This document shows positions 1 to 39,187 of a stretch of 42,891 bases of DNA, piece by piece. Location: the NCBI GenBank assembly GCA_023247215.1, contig JAHFGX010000008.1:1-42891 (forward strand). Reading direction: 5' to 3'. The translations under genes and the position numbers were made by a program. The first letter of the stretch is position 1. Every line of letters begins with the position of its first letter. The notes below the pieces were generated by a model. It was given only the letters and a program-made list of their open reading frames with translations, was not told the origin of the DNA and searched no databases. Origin of the DNA: Candidatus Omnitrophota bacterium. Lineage in GTDB: Bacteria; Omnitrophota; Gorgyraeia; Aquiviventales; Aquiviventaceae.

Positions 1-344
1 TGCGCAAACTTCCACCAGTCCACGGTGATGGGACGAGTTCGGCGCACCTTGACCGCGATGATGGGTTTGCGGTAGTACCGGTTGCCGTAGGAGCGCACCA
101 AGCCGCTCTGCTGAAACCCGGCCAGGTGCTCGGAGAAATAGGCCACCATGTCCCCGCGGTACTGCTCCCCATCCACCACGATGTCAATGCCGAGCTCATC
201 CTGGAAGGCGATCCACTCGCGCGTGGCCTGTTCTTCCAGGCGCTTAAGCTCCTGTGGAGTGCACGCGCCCTTGCGGGCGTCGATGCGGGCCTTCGCCAGG
301 TACTCCGGCTTGGGCAGCGATCCTACCGATGTCGTGAGTAACAT
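1..344 (-). CDS. Cobalamin-independent methionine synthase, catalytic-domain protein (partial, 3' end off window)
   Basis: The visible 114 residues start MLLTTSVGSLPKPEYLAKAR, which is the typical opening of the MetE catalytic barrel, and continue with GIDIVVDGEQYRGDMVAYF, the conserved D-G-E segment of the family. The enzyme would transfer a methyl group to homocysteine to make methionine. The zinc ligands lie in the part cut off by the left edge, so catalytic competence cannot be judged. The ATG at 344 lies two bases after the stop of the preceding gene, which resembles the MetE N-terminal domain, and a GGAGG at 356-360 is a suitable ribosome binding site. The two genes look like one methionine synthase split into two polypeptides. 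The methyl donor (methyl-folate or a corrinoid protein) cannot be told from this fragment. Confidence 0.85.
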   Translation of the reverse strand, partial: MLLTTSVGSLPKPEYLAKARIDARKGACTPQELKRLEEQATREWIAFQDELGIDIVVDGEQYRGDMVAYFSEHLAGFQQSGLVRSYGNRYYRKPIIAVKVRRTRPITVDWWKFA

Positions 345-6632: not shown

Positions 6633-7546
6633 GTGCGAGGGCTCCGTGCCGCGGCGGAGGCTGACGCCAGGCCGGCGGCGGTCAAGACGTCCGGGACCAG
6701 CTCTTCCCATCCGAGGGCGTAGAGGTGGACGCCGTTGGCCACGTCCCGGACCGCGTCAATCAGCTCCGCCGCGATCGCGACGCATTCCGCCCGCAGATCG
6801 CCGGCCCGCTCGAGCCGGGCGATCAGCTCGTCGGGCACATGGATCCCCCACACATGCTCATTCATATACCGCGCCATCTTGGCGGACTTCAGCAATAAAA
6901 TGCCGGCCAGGACCGGCCGCCCCGAAGCTTTGGCCTGCGCCATGAACCGGCGAAAGGCCTCGACGTCGAAGACCGCTTGGGTCTGAAAGAACTGCGCGCC
7001 GGCGGCGATTTTCGCCTGGAACTTTTGCATCTCGACCGCCAGGTCCTTCGCCCCGGGATCCGCGGCCGCGCCGATGCAGAAGCGCGGCGCCCCCTTCAGC
7101 GGCTTGCCGGCCAAGTCGTGTCCCTCCATCAACCCCTTGGCGGCCTGCATGAGGGCCGCGGAATTGATGTCGAACACGGCCTTGGTGTCTGGATGGTCTC
7201 CCTGCTTCGGATCATCTCCCGTCAGCAGCAGGACGTTGCGAATGCCCAGGATGGACGCACCCAGCAAATCGGCCTGCAGCGCCAGCCGGTTGCGGTCGCG
7301 GCACGTCATCTGCAGGATGGGATCCACCCCGGCGTCGAGGACCGCCTTGGCCACCGCCAGGGGGCAGGCCCGCATCATCGCCCCCGACCCATCCGTCACG
7401 TTCACCGCGTCCAGCCAGGGTTTGGTCCGCTCGACCGCGGCGAGCAGCTCGGAGAGCTCCGTGCCTTTCGGCGGATTGACCTCCATCGTCACCAGGAACG
7501 GCTTGCGGCGTAACTGCGGCTCCAGCCGCCGGTCCTCCGAGATCAT
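6629..7546 (-). CDS. metF: Methylenetetrahydrofolate reductase
   Basis: A 305-residue flavin-dependent MTHFR-family TIM barrel. The N-terminal strand reads VTMEVNPPKGTELS, the PPKG variant seen in many anaerobes rather than the enterobacterial FPP form. NVLLLTGDDPKQGDHP and AGAQFFQTQAVFD match conserved cofactor and substrate segments. It reduces 5,10-methylene-THF to 5-methyl-THF, the methyl donor for methionine. It lies between folD (4-base overlap) and gcvT (4-base overlap), so methylene-THF from glycine can be directed to either branch. No metV-like partner gene is present in the operon. Confidence 0.93.
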   Translation of the reverse strand: MISEDRRLEPQLRRKPFLVTMEVNPPKGTELSELLAAVERTKPWLDAVNVTDGSGAMMRACPLAVAKAVLDAGVDPILQMTCRDRNRLALQADLLGASILGIRNVLLLTGDDPKQGDHPDTKAVFDINSAALMQAAKGLMEGHDLAGKPLKGAPRFCIGAAADPGAKDLAVEMQKFQAKIAAGAQFFQTQAVFDVEAFRRFMAQAKASGRPVLAGILLLKSAKMARYMNEHVWGIHVPDELIARLERAGDLRAECVAIAAELIDAVRDVANGVHLYALGWEELVPDVLTAAGLASASAAARSPRT

Positions 7547-24743: not shown

Positions 24744-25502
24744 TCAACCAGCCGAGGGACCGTAATTGATGAGGTGCGCCAGGTAGCCGGCGCCAAACCC
24801 GTTATCAATATTGACGACACCGATGCCGGGAGCGCAGCTATTCAGCATGGTCAGCAAGGGACCGATGCCGGCAAAGCTCGCGCCATACCCCACGCTGGTC
24901 GGCACGGCGACCACCGGGCAATCCACCAACCCGGCCACCACGCTGGCCAAGGCGCCCTCCATCCCCGCCACGACGACCAGCGCGCGGGCGCGCTCCAAGA
25001 CCGGGATCTGGCCCAACAGCCGGTGCAAGCCCGCCACGCCCACATCATAGATCCGCGCCGCTCGGCTGCCGAACACCTCCAAGGTCCGCGCAGCCTCCTC
25101 CGCCACCGGCAGGTCGGCGGTGCCGCCGCTCAGCACCGGCACCAGTCCCCGCCGGCGCAGCCGCGTTGGCACCCAATAGGCCATCCGGGCCATCGGATCG
25201 TATGCCAGGAACGGATGGCGCTGCTGCAGCCGCTGCGCCACCTCCGCGTCCAACCGGGTCAGGAGAATGGTGTCGCGATGGGCATGTAGCCGGCCGACGA
25301 TCTCAACGAGATGGGCCTCGTGTTTGCCCGGGCAAAAGATCACTTCCGGCAAGCCGCGGCGCAGGCGCCGGTGCGTATCAAGCTTGGCAAATCCCAGGTC
25401 CGCGTGGGGAAAATGTTTGAGGGACGCGACCACCGCGCCGATGGGCCGGCGGCCTTGGCGCACTTCACGCAGCCAGCGGCGCAACCGTTGTTCCGTCACC
25501 AT
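24744..25502 (-). CDS. larB: LarB, nickel-pincer nucleotide synthesis (pyridinium-3,5-biscarboxylate mononucleotide synthase)
   Basis: A 252-residue PurE-like protein. The C-terminal half has VLSGGTADLPVAEEAARTLE, YDVGVAGLHRLL, VVVAGMEGALASVVAGLV and PTSVGYGASFAG, all hallmarks of LarB. LarB carboxylates and hydrolyses nicotinic acid adenine dinucleotide as the first step to the nickel-pincer cofactor of lactate racemase and related enzymes. larC, larE and a LarA-type enzyme are not in the window. The start is ATG 25502, two bases past the preceding stop. Confidence 0.92.
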   Translation of the reverse strand: MVTEQRLRRWLREVRQGRRPIGAVVASLKHFPHADLGFAKLDTHRRLRRGLPEVIFCPGKHEAHLVEIVGRLHAHRDTILLTRLDAEVAQRLQQRHPFLAYDPMARMAYWVPTRLRRRGLVPVLSGGTADLPVAEEAARTLEVFGSRAARIYDVGVAGLHRLLGQIPVLERARALVVVAGMEGALASVVAGLVDCPVVAVPTSVGYGASFAGIGPLLTMLNSCAPGIGVVNIDNGFGAGYLAHLINYGPSAG

Positions 25503-25504
25503 CC

Positions 25505-25822
25505 TTAGGTGGACCAAATCAGGTAGATGACCAGGGCGGCGCAGAGCGCAAAGGCCAGCAGGTAGAAGTCGTAAAAGTAGAGGAAATCCCGCAGGCGCTC
25601 CCGCCACCCTGCAGGCTCGGCAGCCGGCGCCGCCTCCGCCGCGCCATCCGCGCGCGGCTGGATCTGCTCTTTCAACAACTTCACCTGCTCGGGACGGAAC
25701 CGGACGAACTCCCCGCCCAGCCGGTAGCCGGTCAACTTGCCGGAGCGTACCAGCGACTCCACGTCCGCTTCCGTGACGCCCAGGTGCCGGGCCACTTCTC
25801 CAATCGTCCACAGTTTTTCCAT
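25505..25822 (-). CDS. Tail-anchored membrane protein with excisionase/MerR-type HTH
   Basis: A 105-residue protein. Residues 1-52 (MEKLWTIGEVARHLGVTEAD, SGKLTGYRLGGEFVRFRPEQ) form a winged helix-turn-helix of the excisionase/HTH_17 kind. Residues 53-75 are an Ala/Glu/Pro-rich linker, and 84-103 (YDFYLLAFALCAALVIYLIW) is a single hydrophobic helix at the C-terminus. The DNA-binding part should face the cytoplasm. It lies 17 bases after the bactofilin-HTH gene, whose C-terminal domain is of the same kind. Function is unknown. ATG 25822 was chosen because the HTH starts right there. Confidence 0.8.
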   Translation of the reverse strand: MEKLWTIGEVARHLGVTEADVESLVRSGKLTGYRLGGEFVRFRPEQVKLLKEQIQPRADGAAEAAPAAEPAGWRERLRDFLYFYDFYLLAFALCAALVIYLIWST

Positions 25823-25839
25823 GCGTGTGTCGTTGTCCT

Positions 25840-26385
25840 TCAGGTATTCGGGTGGCGGATCTTCTCCTGCGCCAGCCACTCTTCCACCTGCTGCCGGTTG
25901 AACCGCCACTGGCCGCCCTCGTGCTGAGCCGGCAACCGGCCCGCCTTGGCCCAGCCCACCACCGTCGGTGCTTCCACTTCCAAGTAGCTGGCCAGCTCTT
26001 CTGCGGTCAGCCATTGCGGCTCCTGGCGCGGGCTGGCCATCATCTCCGAGGTGCCGTGAAACACCGCACCCTCATGCACGATCAGCTTGGGGCTGGAAAT
26101 CTTGCCGACCACGCGGGCCGTCGCGCGAAGCTCGACGCGGCTGAAGGCCGTGATCGTGCCGTCCACCGTGCCGTCCACCACCACCTCTTCTCCGTGGATG
26201 CTGGCCTGCACGCGGGCATGCTCTCCGATGGTGAGATTGCCCTTCGTCTCCAGGGTCCCTTCGAACCGGCCGTTGATCTGAAGATTCACGGGGTCTTTGA
26301 ACCGCAGCGTCCCGCTCATGCTGGCATCCACCTCCAGCCGCTGGGCGCGCGACGCTTCGTTGACCGGCCGCCGACGAAAAGCCAT
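25840..26385 (-). CDS. Bactofilin (polymer-forming cytoskeletal) domain fused to HTH DNA-binding domain
   Basis: A 181-residue two-domain protein. Residues 18-112 are bactofilin-like: repeated beta-helix turns such as LQINGRFEGTLETKGNLTIG, VVVDGTVDGTITAFSRVEL and GKISSPKLIVHEGAVFHG. Residues 125-172 (WLTAEELASYLEVEAPTVVG, AGRLPAQHEGGQWRFNRQQV) form an excisionase/MerR-like winged HTH. Bactofilins self-assemble into filaments without nucleotide, often near the membrane. A fused DNA-binding module suggests a filament that contacts DNA or another target of this fold. It sits between an MgtC-family gene (4-base gap) and the tail-anchored HTH gene. Confidence 0.85.
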   Translation of the reverse strand: MAFRRRPVNEASRAQRLEVDASMSGTLRFKDPVNLQINGRFEGTLETKGNLTIGEHARVQASIHGEEVVVDGTVDGTITAFSRVELRATARVVGKISSPKLIVHEGAVFHGTSEMMASPRQEPQWLTAEELASYLEVEAPTVVGWAKAGRLPAQHEGGQWRFNRQQVEEWLAQEKIRHPNT

Positions 26386-26389
26386 TAAG

Positions 26390-27043
26390 CTATCGCCATG
26401 TGACTCGCTGTACTCCCGGCGTCCGCGAGAGCTGCTCCGTCACGTCATGCTGCGTCTGTTCCGACCGCAACTTGACCTCCAGCTCCACGACGGCGCCGGA
26501 CGCGTCGGTCCGCTTCAGCTCCACCCCGCGCACTTCCACGTCATAGAGCGCCAGGAGCCGGTAAATCTCCGCCAAGACCTCCAGCGAGAAGGTGGTCTCG
26601 ACCACCAGCCCCTTATACCAATCCCGCCGGATGACGCGCTCCCATCGGCTGAGGCTGAACAGGACGACCAACGAAATCAGCGTCACTGCGACCGCGCCGA
26701 ATTCGAAGCCGGCGCCGACGGCCAATCCCACTCCCGCCACGACCCAAAGGCTTGCCGCCGTCGTCAGGCCGCGAATCGAGGCGCGAGCGCGCAGGATCGT
26801 GCCCGCGCCGAGGAAGCCGATGCCGCTGACGACCTGCGCGGCAATGCGTGTGGGATCCAGGCCGGAACCGCTCCAGGTCTCCGCAAGGAAGATTCCGGTC
26901 AGCATCATCAGGCACGAGCCCATTCCCACCAGGATGTGCGTCCGCAAGCCGGCGGCGCGGCCATGGCGTTCCCGCTCGAACCCGATGATGCCGCCCAGCA
27001 GCGTCACCAGCAATAATCGCTCCACAATGAGCAACGGAGGCAT
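26390..27043 (-). CDS. MgtC/SapB family membrane protein
   Basis: A 217-residue protein. The N-terminal part has four to five hydrophobic helices and the family motifs LLGGIIGFERERHGRAAGLR, THILVGMGSCLMML and VVSGIGFLGAGTIL. A soluble C-terminal domain (residues about 145-217) resembles an ACT-like fold. The family is linked to magnesium homeostasis and control of ATP synthase or transporters, but the role varies. Neighbours tsaD and the bactofilin gene give no clear functional hint. Confidence 0.88.
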   Translation of the reverse strand: MPPLLIVERLLLVTLLGGIIGFERERHGRAAGLRTHILVGMGSCLMMLTGIFLAETWSGSGLDPTRIAAQVVSGIGFLGAGTILRARASIRGLTTAASLWVVAGVGLAVGAGFEFGAVAVTLISLVVLFSLSRWERVIRRDWYKGLVVETTFSLEVLAEIYRLLALYDVEVRGVELKRTDASGAVVELEVKLRSEQTQHDVTEQLSRTPGVQRVTWR

Positions 27044-34561: not shown

Positions 34562-35539
34562 CTAAGACGAGGCTGCGAAATCAGAGGAGATGCTGATGTA
34601 GGCCTTCTCTTGAAGGCGCTGCAGCCACTGGGCCATCCGCTCCCGGAACTTGTCCTGGTACACCTGGTCTTCAACCTGCCGTCGCGAGGCTGCCGCATCG
34701 TCCGCGCCGATGTGGCGGCGCTCTTCCACCTGGATGAGATGGAAGCCCAACCGCGTCTGGATCGGTGGGGAAATCTCGTGCACGGCCGCGTGCGAGATCG
34801 CCGCATCCAACTCCGGCAAGAGCTGCCCGGACCGCACCCATCCCAGCAGGCCCCCCTCATGGGCATGCGGGTCATCCGAGTAAGTGCGGGCCAGCTCTTC
34901 AAAGAGGGCGCCGCGCTGCAGGCGCTCGTAGAGATGCGTCGCCAACCCCCTGGCCTCGTCCACCGGCCGCTCCGGTGTCACGCGGATCAGCAGATGCCGC
35001 ACCTGCGCTTCTTCGCCGGTGGTCTGGTCCACGCCGTGATCGCTCAACGCGCCGTCAATCTCGGCGGGGCTCACGACGAGCTTGGCGCGCACCTCCTGCT
35101 CGATCGCCCGCTGGATGAGGATCTGATCGCGAAGCTCCTGCTTCAGGCGCTCTTCCGTCAACCCTTCTTCCTGCAGCATGGAGGCAAAGGCGTCGTCGGT
35201 CTTCAACTGCTCGCGGATCCGGCTCAACCGCTCAGCCACCTCCTCTGAGCTGGCCGCCAATCCCAGCCGCCGCGCTTCTTGGAGCATCAGGCGCTCTTCA
35301 ATCAACCGCTGGAGCACCGCGCGCCGCATGGCGGTTTCCGCCCCGCGGGTCTCCGCGCCCTCAGCGTCGGCCCGCTCCTTCAACGCCGCCACGCGCGCCT
35401 GCACATCTCCCTCGGTCACGACGTCCTCGTTCACGACCGCCACGATCCGGTTCGTCATCGCGGACGGCTGGACGTCCCACCACGGTGCGAGCATCACGGC
35501 CAGCGCCGCGCTCAAAGCGACGCTCCACGATCTGGTCAT
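34562..35539 (-). CDS. surA: SurA-like periplasmic peptidyl-prolyl isomerase/chaperone
   Basis: A 325-residue exported protein. A signal sequence (MTRSWSVALSAALAVMLAPW) is followed by the SurA N-terminal helical domain (NRIVAVVNEDVVTEGDVQAR) and one parvulin domain (VRHLLIRVTPERPVDEARGL, YSDDPHAHEGGLLGWVRSGQ). E. coli SurA has two parvulin domains. SurA-type chaperones help outer-membrane proteins fold, so this supports a Gram-negative envelope. ATG 35539 overlaps the mfd stop as ATGA. Confidence 0.88.
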   Translation of the reverse strand: MTRSWSVALSAALAVMLAPWWDVQPSAMTNRIVAVVNEDVVTEGDVQARVAALKERADAEGAETRGAETAMRRAVLQRLIEERLMLQEARRLGLAASSEEVAERLSRIREQLKTDDAFASMLQEEGLTEERLKQELRDQILIQRAIEQEVRAKLVVSPAEIDGALSDHGVDQTTGEEAQVRHLLIRVTPERPVDEARGLATHLYERLQRGALFEELARTYSDDPHAHEGGLLGWVRSGQLLPELDAAISHAAVHEISPPIQTRLGFHLIQVEERRHIGADDAAASRRQVEDQVYQDKFRERMAQWLQRLQEKAYISISSDFAASS

Positions 35540-37482
35540 GGCCGCTCGCCCCTCATCGGCTGCCGCGGCTGGCGGCACTGTCGAACCGCTTCCCGCAGCA
35601 GCCGGCAGTAGTAGTCGAATCCCACCGCCGTGATATGCCCATGCTGCTCCGGCCCCAAGATATTGCCCGCGCCGCGCAGCTTGAGATCTTCCATGGCGAT
35701 CGTAAACCCGGACCCCAGCGCCGTATGCTTCGCGATCGCCTGCAGCCGGGCGCGAGACTCCTCTGTCAAGACCGTCCCGCGCGGCACCACCAAATAGGCG
35801 TAGGCCTTGCGCGTGAACCGTCCCACCCGTCCGCGCAGTTGGTACAGCTCGGCCAACCCGAACTGGTGGGCGTCGGCGATGATCATGGTGTTGGCATTGG
35901 GGATGTCCACGCCGGATTCGATGATGGTGGTGGTCACCAGCACGTCGAGCCGCCCTTCCATGAAATCCGCCACGGTGCGGGCCAGCGCCTCTTCCGCCAT
36001 CTGCCCGTGCCCGATGCCGATGCGCGCTTCCGGCACCAGGGCGCGCACCCGCGCGGCCACGCGCTGAATGCTCCGCACCCGGTTGTGGACGACGTACACC
36101 TGCCCGGCCCGCGCCAGCTCCTGCCGGATCCAGCGGCCGAGGGAGTCATCATCATCTTCGGCCACTACCGTCTCCACCGGGTGCCGGTGCTCAGGCGGGG
36201 TGGTGATCAGCGAGAGGTGCCGCGAACCCATCAGCGACAGGTACAACGTCCGGGGGATCGGCGTGGCCGACAGGGTCAGCACATCCAGCTGGCTGCGCCA
36301 GCGCTTCAGCTGCTCTTTCTCTTTGACGCCGAAGCGCTGCTCCTCATCCACAATCAGCAAGCGAAGGTCCCGGAACGCGAGGTCGTCTGAGAGAAGCCGG
36401 TGCGTGCCGATGACGATGTCGCACTGCCCGGTCTGCAACGCCGCAATCACCCGCCGCTGCTCCGCCTCTGATTGAAAGCGCGAGAGCGTCTCCACCGTGA
36501 CCGGCAGCGACTTCATCCGGGCCGAAAACGTCCGGTGATGCTGGTAGGCCAACACCGTGGTGGGAACCAAGACAGCGACCTGCTTCTGCGCGGTGACCGC
36601 CTTGCAGGCGGCCCGCAGCGCGACCTCGGTCTTCCCGTACCCGACATCGCCCAGCAGCAAGCGGTCCATCGGCACCGGCTGCTCCATGTCGCGCTTGACG
36701 TCGGCGATGGCGGCCAGCTGGTCCGGGGTCTCGCGATACGGAAATGCCCGCTCGAAAGCCTGCTGCCATTCGTGGTCCGGAGGAAACGCGTAGCCTGGCA
36801 GGGCCAGCCGCTTGGCCTGGACCTCCAGCAGGTCCTTCGCATAGGTCCACGCGGAGATGTAGGCGCGGTCCTTCGCCCGCTCCCAGGCCTGGCCGCCCAG
36901 CTTATGCAGCTGGGGGGCGCGCCCGCCGAACCCCACGTACTTCTGCACCAGGTGCAGCTGCTCCAAGGGCACGTACAAGCGGTCCCCGTCGGCGTATTCC
37001 AGGATCAGCGCATCGGTCTGCCCGTGCCGCAGCGGCCCGCCCGCCTCGGAGGATGCGTGGCGGGCAGGCAGGGTCGTCCGTCCGGCGAACCGCCCGATCC
37101 CGTGGTCCACGTGGACCACCAGGTCTCCGACCGCGAGGTCCAGCGTGCCCTCGAACGGGATGTCGGAAGCTGGTAGTGCGGCCGTGGGGGCGATGCGGCT
37201 CGCGACCTCGCATGGCAGGATGACGACCATGGAGTGCCGATCCAGGGTATCGGTGGTAGCCGGATTGAAGCTGCGGATCGAGAGCACGCGGGAACCGTGA
37301 AGCTCCACTCGCAAGGGGCACTCAAAGGTGGCGGGAAAGATATCCAGGACGCCGCCGCGGAGAGCCACATCACCGGGGTCGGCCACTTGACCCGTGCGCC
37401 GGTAGCCGAACCGCAGCAGCTGTTCCAGCGTCTGGGTCACCTCAAGACGCTCCCCCACATAGAGACGGCAGCAGTCCAACAT
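35536..37482 (-). CDS. mfd: Reduced transcription-repair coupling factor (Mfd-like), about 648 aa
   Basis: The protein holds: a remnant of the D1 UvrB-like module (GYRRTGQVADPGD, LRGGVLDIFP, residues 26-50); a CarD-like RNA-polymerase interaction domain (VGDLVVHVDHGIGRFAG, 118-134, to about 185); and the RecG-like motor with Walker A GDVGYGKT (278-285), DEEQ (379-382), TLSATPIPRTL and QLRGRVGR. Normal Mfd has about 1100-1200 residues. Missing are the first part of D1 with D2, the D3 domain between D1 and the RNAP-binding domain, and the C-terminal autoinhibitory D7; the protein stops soon after VGFDYYCRLLREAV. The ATG at 37482 is 4 bases past the argS stop; a TTG at 37515 is a weaker option. 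No fragment of the missing parts is adjacent, so this is not a simple frameshift. Confidence 0.88.
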   Translation of the reverse strand: MLDCCRLYVGERLEVTQTLEQLLRFGYRRTGQVADPGDVALRGGVLDIFPATFECPLRVELHGSRVLSIRSFNPATTDTLDRHSMVVILPCEVASRIAPTAALPASDIPFEGTLDLAVGDLVVHVDHGIGRFAGRTTLPARHASSEAGGPLRHGQTDALILEYADGDRLYVPLEQLHLVQKYVGFGGRAPQLHKLGGQAWERAKDRAYISAWTYAKDLLEVQAKRLALPGYAFPPDHEWQQAFERAFPYRETPDQLAAIADVKRDMEQPVPMDRLLLGDVGYGKTEVALRAACKAVTAQKQVAVLVPTTVLAYQHHRTFSARMKSLPVTVETLSRFQSEAEQRRVIAALQTGQCDIVIGTHRLLSDDLAFRDLRLLIVDEEQRFGVKEKEQLKRWRSQLDVLTLSATPIPRTLYLSLMGSRHLSLITTPPEHRHPVETVVAEDDDDSLGRWIRQELARAGQVYVVHNRVRSIQRVAARVRALVPEARIGIGHGQMAEEALARTVADFMEGRLDVLVTTTIIESGVDIPNANTMIIADAHQFGLAELYQLRGRVGRFTRKAYAYLVVPRGTVLTEESRARLQAIAKHTALGSGFTIAMEDLKLRGAGNILGPEQHGHITAVGFDYYCRLLREAVRQCRQPRQPMRGERP

Positions 37483-37486
37483 CAGG

Positions 37487-39187
37487 TTACATCCGGCGGG
37501 GCGCGCTGATTCCAAGCAGCTCGAGGCCGTTCGCCAGCACCCAGCGCGCGGCGGAAATCAGCTTCAGCCGGGCGCGGGAGCGCGGCACGTCTTCGGTGAT
37601 CACCCGCTGCCGGGTGTAAAACACATGGAACAGCTCAGCCAGCTTCTGCAGGTAGGCGGTCATGCCGTGCGGCTCCAGTTGCTGGGCGCAGGCCCGGACC
37701 GCCACCGGAAAATGGCACAGGTGGCGCAACAGCCGCCGCTCCTCCGGCTCGCTCAAGCGCGCCAGGTCCACGCGGCCCAAGCGCCGAAACCACGGGAGCT
37801 GCCCCTGGGCATAGGCCAGGATGCTGCAGATCCTGGCGTGGGCATACTGCACGTAATAGACGGGGTTCTCTTGCGCCTTGGATTTCGCCAGCTCCAGGTC
37901 GAAATCCAGATGGCTGTCCATCGTCCGGATGAGATAAAAAAACCGCGTGGCATCCACGCCGACCTCATCCAAAATTTCCCGGAAGGTGATGAACTCCCCC
38001 TGGCGCTTGGACATCGGCACCGGCGCGCCGTCCCGCGACAGCGTGACCAACTGCACGATCCGGACCACCAAGCGGTCCGCCGGCTGACCCAAGGCGGTCA
38101 TCGCGGCTTTGACCCGGGGGATGTAACCGTGGTGGTCCGGCCCCCAGAGGTTGACCATGAGCCCGTAGCCCTGCTCGAATTTCCACGCGTGGTAGGCGAT
38201 GTCCGGCGCCACATAGGTCAATTCGCCGGACTGTTTCTTGACGACCCGGTCCTTGTCGTCGCCGAATTTCGTGGAGGCAAACCAGGTGGCGCCGTCCTGC
38301 TCAAAGAGCAACCCGCGGCTCCGGAGCGCATCGAGCGCCCGGTCGATCTTCCCGGACGTCCGAAGCCATCGCTGGCTGGTCCACCGGTCAAACTGCAAGC
38401 CAAAATGGCGCAGGTCCTCCTGGATCCGATGGAGCTGCTCCTTCATCCCCTGCTCCGCAAACCACTCGAGCGGTTTTTGAAGCACGGCGGGCCCGCATTG
38501 CGCCACCAGCGCCTTCGCGCTGTCCGTGACATACGCGCCGTGGTAGCCGTCTTCGGGAAACAGCTCGGCCTGCCCGAGCTGCTCAGCGCAGCGCGCGCGG
38601 AGGGATTTACCCAACAGCTCAATCTGCCGGCCTTCATCGTTCAAATAATATTCGGCTGTGACCCGATAGCCCTGGAACCTCAACAGCCGGGCCAACGCGT
38701 CGCCTTCCGCCGCTTGCCGGCCATGGGCCACGCTCAGCGGGCCGGTGGGGTTGGCGCTCACAAACTCGATCAAGACGGATTTTCCCGCGCCGGCCTGGCC
38801 GCGGCCATACTGGTGACGCTCCCGATGGATCCGCCGCACCACCCCGCTCAGGGCCTGCTGGGACAAGAAAAGATTGATGAATCCCCTGACCACGTCCAGA
38901 CGCTCGACGACGCCGGCCAGCCGCCGAGCCGCCAGGACCGCGCGGAGCTGTGCGATGATCTCTTCCGCCACCGCCGGCGGAGGCTGCCGCCTGGCCGACG
39001 CCAGGGTAAACGCGATGGGAGAGGACAGATCGCCCAGCGAGGCTTCCTTCGGAATGTCCCACCGGACGGCAGCCGTTGACGCCGGCAACGACTCCTCCGC
39101 TCCGGCGGACGCAGCCCAGGTCCGCACCGCTTCCTGCAGCGCGTCGGTCAAGGCTTCATCGAGATGTCTCAAAGGCGGTTGAGTCAT
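37487..39187 (-). CDS. argS: Arginyl-tRNA synthetase with altered HIGH motif
   Basis: A 566-residue class I synthetase. IEFVSANPTGPLSVAHGRQA is the diagnostic ArgRS segment, but the HIGH signature reads S152-V-A-H155 instead of His-Val-Gly-His. VNLWGPDHHGYIPRVKAAM and PMSKRQGEFITF (KMSKS-like region) are conserved. The anticodon-binding DALR domain ends the protein (YAHARICSIL to LELLGISAP). Length is normal. It follows rsfS by 34 bases and precedes the reduced mfd. Confidence 0.95.
   Translation of the reverse strand: MTQPPLRHLDEALTDALQEAVRTWAASAGAEESLPASTAAVRWDIPKEASLGDLSSPIAFTLASARRQPPPAVAEEIIAQLRAVLAARRLAGVVERLDVVRGFINLFLSQQALSGVVRRIHRERHQYGRGQAGAGKSVLIEFVSANPTGPLSVAHGRQAAEGDALARLLRFQGYRVTAEYYLNDEGRQIELLGKSLRARCAEQLGQAELFPEDGYHGAYVTDSAKALVAQCGPAVLQKPLEWFAEQGMKEQLHRIQEDLRHFGLQFDRWTSQRWLRTSGKIDRALDALRSRGLLFEQDGATWFASTKFGDDKDRVVKKQSGELTYVAPDIAYHAWKFEQGYGLMVNLWGPDHHGYIPRVKAAMTALGQPADRLVVRIVQLVTLSRDGAPVPMSKRQGEFITFREILDEVGVDATRFFYLIRTMDSHLDFDLELAKSKAQENPVYYVQYAHARICSILAYAQGQLPWFRRLGRVDLARLSEPEERRLLRHLCHFPVAVRACAQQLEPHGMTAYLQKLAELFHVFYTRQRVITEDVPRSRARLKLISAARWVLANGLELLGISAPRRM

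Follow-up and report, generated by a model that had tools for sequence, protein, structure and literature searches.

A bactofilin fused to a winged helix-turn-helix domain and its tail-anchored neighbour, a probable membrane scaffold in Omnitrophota

Introduction

Bactofilins such as BacA of Caulobacter, ThBac of Thermus and BacNOP of Myxococcus are built around a common beta-helix domain (PF04519), and a cationic N-terminal membrane-targeting peptide is described for bactofilins (consensus MFSKKKK; PMC12448750). Beyond this domain they have short, poorly conserved tails or, in BacP, a long disordered one (PMC12448750). It is poorly understood how a bactofilin filament comes to select its membrane clients. 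Here we describe a gene pair from Omnitrophota in which a bactofilin, P0001, has the same beta-helix domain but ends in a structured winged helix-turn-helix (HTH), and in which the neighbouring gene encodes P0002, a small tail-anchored protein with an HTH of its own. A peptide similar to that of the known bactofilins is found at the N-terminus of most of the fusions. For both HTHs the closest solved relative by fold, and one of the closest by sequence, is BldC (6AMA/6AMK), whose dimer head face is conserved in P0001; unlike BldC, the P0001 domain is acidic, and the two HTHs are fused to a filament domain (P0001) or to a membrane helix (P0002).

The pair would offer a folded docking domain on the bactofilin together with a receptor gene next door, and its near-universal presence in a phylum whose members are mostly ultra-small and uncultured makes the question of client choice testable with two small proteins. 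The original prediction, made from the letters of this locus, knew of no described system with such an arrangement, and we likewise found none in the papers searched: no paper named both Omnitrophota and bactofilin, the main Omnitrophota genome survey mentions neither bactofilins nor a cytoskeleton, and no bactofilin-HTH fusion or folded C-terminal client-binding domain on a bactofilin was found described. We propose that the pair is probably an undescribed membrane scaffold whose HTHs bind proteins rather than DNA.

Results

The window, by which we mean the whole stretch of 42,891 nucleotides analysed, comes from an Omnitrophota genome of 1.46 Mb in 57 contigs. P0001 (25840..26385 (-), 181 aa) and, 17 bases downstream of it, P0002 (25505..25822 (-), 105 aa) had been predicted to be a bactofilin-HTH fusion and a tail-anchored HTH protein. 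Rechecked on the window, the predicted coordinates, gap and domain order are all exact, and Pfam, AlphaFold2 and hydropathy confirm both architectures. Residues ~18-113 of P0001 (26047..26334 (-)) match PF04519 with E 7.8e-26 to 2e-25 and 89.2 bits (cut-off 27.9). AlphaFold2, run on the family alignment, gives the protein a mean pLDDT of 89.1 and the beta-only core of the bactofilin domain 94-98, and Foldseek aligns the domain with 2N3D, 6RIA and 6RIB (TMt 0.85-0.90, probability 1.00, E 1e-3 or weaker); as modelled, it is a right-handed beta-helix. P0001 F109 aligns with Thermus F105, the residue altered in 6RIA, the F105R mutant. Behind this domain, residues 125-174 match HTH_17 (E 2.6e-14; 53.6 bits, cut-off 27), and the winged HTH at ~125-177 (25855..26013 (-)), acidic and with conserved L135, E136, V137, W145, F162 and W170, is modelled confidently, with block pLDDT values of 84-96 up to residue 170. 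The fold at residues 125-172, on which the original prediction hung, is thus predicted with high confidence. At its other end P0001 begins MAFRRRPVNE (26356..26385 (-)), a hydrophobic residue followed by cationic ones, which resembles the bactofilin membrane-targeting peptide; a hydrophobic residue at position 2-3 with at least two K/R in the first eight residues is present in 112 of 157 P0001 homologues, and the predicted cationic N-terminus may help most of the fusions to lie on the membrane.

P0002 consists of an HTH_17 domain, a linker and a single hydrophobic C-terminal helix. Its HTH (residues ~6-54, 25661..25807 (-); Pfam match at 6-48 with E 2e-6 and 28.4 bits, cut-off 27) has a near-invariant Y33 and an invariant R41 and is modelled at 6-54 by AlphaFold2 on the family alignment (mean pLDDT 81.7), with the C-terminal helix at 85-104 reaching 95-98. 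The Kyte-Doolittle value of that helix is 2.27 over 19 residues, hydrophobic enough for a membrane helix; hydropathy exceeds 1.6 in 153 of 156 homologues, in which a median of 1 and a maximum of 7 residues follow the hydropathy window. By its sequence, then, P0002 has one predicted C-terminal membrane helix with few residues beyond it, the layout of a tail-anchored protein. Just before the helix lies a juxtamembrane motif, DFLYFYDFY in the window (79-87; 25508..25588 (-) together with the helix to the C-terminus), with the consensus DFxYFNDFY across homologues (Y87 in 157/157, F86 in 152/157, D85 in 141/157). Among 40 genomes searched, this motif and helix occur as one copy per genome and solely in P0002 homologues, and a search for the membrane motif in 38 genomes mostly without the pair gave no convincing match. 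The best solved Foldseek matches of both HTHs are BldC, RacA and Xis (probabilities 1.00, E 1e-3 or weaker). Neither protein reaches the NCBIfam BldC model (31.8 bits for P0001 and 13.7 for P0002, cut-off 77), and both HTHs are HTH_17 rather than the RodZ-type HTH_25.

We searched 285 Omnitrophota genomes with a profile of each protein, counting as full-scoring a fusion at E <= 1e-30 and a partner at E <= 1e-18. Full-scoring fusions are present in 238 genomes and full-scoring partners in 251, plus one partner cut at its contig end (G195, counted as absent in the Fisher test). Both proteins occur in 238 genomes, the partner only in 14 (2 of which sit at contig ends), neither in 33 and the fusion without the partner in 0; co-occurrence gives p ~6e-31 in a Fisher test that ignores relatedness. 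Where a locus has both genes, they are neighbours in 156 of 156 distinct cases; among 84 named or outgroup loci they are adjacent in 83, the exception being G021, where they lie on different contigs. Because it recurs across Omnitrophota, the two-gene unit is well beyond chance. The same survey covers the possibility, raised with the original prediction, that relatives keep the domains as separate genes and that the fusion is an assembly or local artefact: across Omnitrophota the two domains sit in a single gene, which rules the artefact out.

Plasmids searched held no match to P0001 or P0002. Distribution outside the phylum was tested weakly, by one genome scan and the best 80 of 322 matches, and among these 80 the named relatives are Omnitrophota MAGs except for two records with other labels. 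One record, SBAZ01000010.1, is labelled Planctomycetales and bears the Omnitrophota locus; it agrees in both length and match with G010:C134 from the window's own family, and its label is probably wrong. A second bactofilin, without an HTH, is encoded at 1198-1656 of contig G057:C74 (L074), in addition to the fusion of that genome.

The original prediction suggested that the pair might tie a filament, the membrane and DNA together. If both HTHs bound DNA, a membrane-bound filament and P0002 could fasten the chromosome to the membrane; for both HTHs the nearest solved structures are DNA-bound BldC and RacA, the second of them a chromosome anchor, the P0002 wing is basic with R41 invariant, and bactofilins organise ParABS in Myxococcus (PMC5703909). 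As controls for both HTHs we took 21 soluble HTH_17 proteins encoded in the same genomes as the pair, picked by similarity to the P0001 HTH and not at random. The fusion HTH has a mean net charge of -3.07, against +1.27 in the partner HTH and +3.95 in the controls. In BldC, Arg30 reads bases and its alanine mutant loses DNA binding (PMC5859096); of 43 fusions, 32 have E, Q or D at the corresponding position, and 37 have E or D at the residue that follows the wing, where K or R is found in most controls. With base-reading Arg30 and Lys26 mostly lost, P0001 departs from the DNA-binding pattern of BldC. Because the P0001 HTH is acidic (-3.1) and without the base-reading residues that the controls tend to keep, tethering of the filament to DNA is unlikely. 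The charge and contact residues of the P0001 HTH make DNA binding by the bactofilin itself unlikely. The P0002 recognition helix is also acidic on average (-1.07 against +2.38 in the controls), and a ParB-type match in 11 of 11 relatives at least 90% complete makes a separate segregation system probable. Overall, we regard a chromosome tether as unlikely. Annotation of such proteins as 'excisionase-type HTH' is no guarantee that they bind DNA.

DNA contact could be made through the basic wing of P0002. P0002 might then be a membrane-anchored DNA-binding regulator or tether, on to which the bactofilin docks by its own HTH and which it clusters. TubY is a precedent for such a division of labour, being a MerR-like HTH protein that acts on a filament and binds to membrane as well as to DNA (PMC7762940). 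The invariant arginine of the wing and the persistence of P0002 without the bactofilin would agree with it. R41, however, is a general HTH_17 fold residue, found in 21 of 21 controls; the position of BldC Thr27, a phosphate contact, holds D or E in 29 of 41 partner recognition helices, and P0002 ends at its membrane helix and so has no sensor domain. Such split roles seem to us rather unlikely. Independently of the pair, several short soluble HTH_17 proteins of ~60-100 aa are encoded in Omnitrophota genomes (L075, L076, L210-L229), with mostly basic recognition helices, and at least two types recur between genera.

The alternative raised with the original prediction, that the HTH folds mediate protein contacts, is favoured over the DNA tie by charge and contact residues. 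In the BldC dimer, Phe21, Val23, Trp31 and Arg22 meet Leu11, Ile40, Thr42, Leu43, Gly44 and Glu16 of the next subunit (PMC5859096). P0001 L135, E136, V137 and W145 align with BldC Phe21, Arg22, Val23 and Trp31, and this face is conserved in the fusions (L135 157/157, E136 151/157, V137 131/157, W145 153/157). P0002 Tyr33 aligns with BldC Ile40 and is Y in 153, F in 3 and L in 1 of 157 genomes with the fusion. The reciprocal positions differ: that of Trp31 is Leu in 38 of 41 partners, and that of Ile40 is most often Gln in the fusion (20/43). Covariation between P0001 and P0002 (mutual information with APC, 157 pairs, Neff ~130) gave top pairs that look like phylogenetic noise and do not point to the proposed HTH-HTH interface, and in the four pairs where W145 is replaced by M or L the partner Tyr33 is unchanged.

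Genomes that have lost the bactofilin bear on this contact. Dependence within the pair runs in one direction: no genome has the fusion alone, and the partner survives loss of the fusion. In five lineages (G017, G019, G211, family f8 and part of f30) the bactofilin gene is absent while the partner and a recognisable locus are kept, with mgtC and larB also missing in f8. After the loss, Tyr33 is H in G019 and in all six f8 genomes and T in G211, where R41, Y87, G37 and L14 are retained; it is the sole partner HTH position above 90% conservation that changes upon bactofilin loss. Tyr33 is unchanged in G017 and f30, and two residues of the membrane motif, F86 and D79, are each altered in two loss lineages; because two lineages keep Tyr33 and F86 has changed in two, general relaxation is possible. 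In G002, a single MAG 65% complete, neither the bactofilin gene nor the HTH half of the partner is left, and a 39-aa peptide, MPLTEGVRHRVREFLYFYDFYIFSSVLLIAVTVYLVASS (L311:1705-1824; G002:C60), consists of the juxtamembrane motif and membrane helix only, starting at an in-frame ATG five bases after mgtC and followed by larB. The membrane module of P0002 thus outlives the bactofilin, and the bactofilin never outlives its partner. A diverged tail-anchored HTH protein with the motif DFIRYYDFYI is encoded at 6741-7103 (-) of contig G052:C7 (L203), in a genome without the fusion.

The conservation pattern and the Tyr33 changes fit a heterotypic HTH-HTH contact and do not prove it. In a stricter form of the idea, the two HTHs would have divided the faces of a BldC-like head-to-tail dimer between them, one retaining the 'head' and the other the 'tail', and as complementary winged HTHs they would form a protein-protein snap that couples the filament to a tail-anchored receptor, with DNA binding lost. 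This version, taken with its head-and-tail assignment, we offer as tentative; under it the fusion and partner, nearly universal in Omnitrophota by profile search, would be an ancestral core feature of the phylum.

The losses also speak to whether the genes have any joint function or are unrelated small genes kept side by side through operon inheritance. Linkage alone is weak evidence here, since the gene order is conserved all around the pair: the usual series is gatA-gatB-ctpA-tsaD-mgtC-fusion-P0002-larB, with a cupin and PilB-like ATPases often coming next, and in the window the pair lies between mgtC (26390..27043 (-), PF02308) and a larB-like gene with an AIRC domain (24744..25490 (-), PF00731), present in 63 of 84 loci. 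The partner, moreover, persists without the fusion. Yet the fusion is never without the partner even where neighbourhoods are rearranged or the genes lie apart (G021), Tyr33 differs after three independent losses, and G002 lacks both HTHs at once, which makes the absence of any joint function highly improbable.

The ATPases suggest a further reading, a polar scaffold that positions the PilB/GspE-like ATPases of type IV pili or type II secretion encoded nearby. In the window the pair is followed by two T2SSE ATPases and pseudopilins, such ATPases lie within ~5 kb in 25 of 84 loci, and the diverged P0002 homologue of G052 is directly upstream of PilB-like ATPase genes. Most loci, however, have none of these genes nearby, the pair's constant companions are housekeeping genes (tsaD, gatA/B, larB), and such an ATPase would be a possible client of the scaffold explanation rather than a different mechanism; as an account of its own we consider this very unlikely. 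Elsewhere in the window, an Mfd-like ORF (35536-37515) of 659 aa has UvrB-interaction, CarD/RID and helicase domains only and looks short for a transcription-repair coupling factor.

Discussion

Our preferred account, which we think somewhat better than evenly supported, is an Omnitrophota-wide two-component membrane scaffold in which P0002 is the receptor of the bactofilin through an HTH-HTH contact. P0001 would polymerise through its bactofilin domain on the cytoplasmic membrane, helped there in most members by the cationic N-terminal peptide. Its C-terminal winged HTH, in which DNA binding would have been turned into a protein-docking head, would be received directly by the cytoplasmic HTH of P0002, perhaps in a BldC-like head-to-tail fashion with L135, E136, V137 and W145 against the Tyr33 face. 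The juxtamembrane DFxYFNDFY motif and membrane helix of P0002 would in turn bind another membrane component, the putative client, and the filament would thereby be recruited to that client or cluster it.

Of the three-way tie first proposed, the membrane part stands as a well-supported inference, because the partner has a membrane helix, most of the bactofilins have a cationic N-terminus and co-occurrence is strict; the link from filament to DNA is unlikely, given the acidic P0001 HTH and its missing base-reading residues. The conserved DFxYFNDFY motif, the acidic bactofilin HTH and the one-way gene dependence go beyond the original prediction. We also considered the pair as a replacement for RodZ, MreB or ParB, which is ruled out by the presence of all three families in relatives; separate HTH_25 proteins occur in 23 of 25 relatives, and MreB is also present.

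RodZ-MreB is a works-like comparison, in which a membrane HTH contacts a filament instead of DNA; RodZ differs in having HTH_25 and a periplasmic part, and Omnitrophota carry HTH_25 proteins and MreB besides the pair. In the BacP-PadC-ParA system of Myxococcus, as proposed here, a bactofilin's C-terminal extension recruits a partner encoded next door (PMC5703909), but PadC is ParB-like and has no membrane helix, where in Omnitrophota a folded HTH would do the docking, on a small tail-anchored HTH partner. TubY of type III plasmid partition is like P0002 a MerR-like HTH protein with a membrane-binding C-terminus and a link to a cytoskeletal filament (PMC7762940); it is a DNA-binding tetramer with an amphipathic tail, and in its system the filament is not a bactofilin and carries no HTH. 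CbpM and DafA, also small and MerR-like, have another protein instead of DNA as their binding partner (CbpM: PMC4063869), and 3UCS (CbpM) and 9DVI are among the Foldseek matches to the P0002 HTH. The use of a MerR-like fold as a protein-binding module in CbpM, which is without DNA-binding residues, supports the docking reading; unlike the pair, CbpM and DafA bind chaperone components and have no filament or membrane link. None of these systems has the architecture of the Omnitrophota pair, and BacP-PadC, TubY, CbpM and RodZ are its nearest functional precedents.
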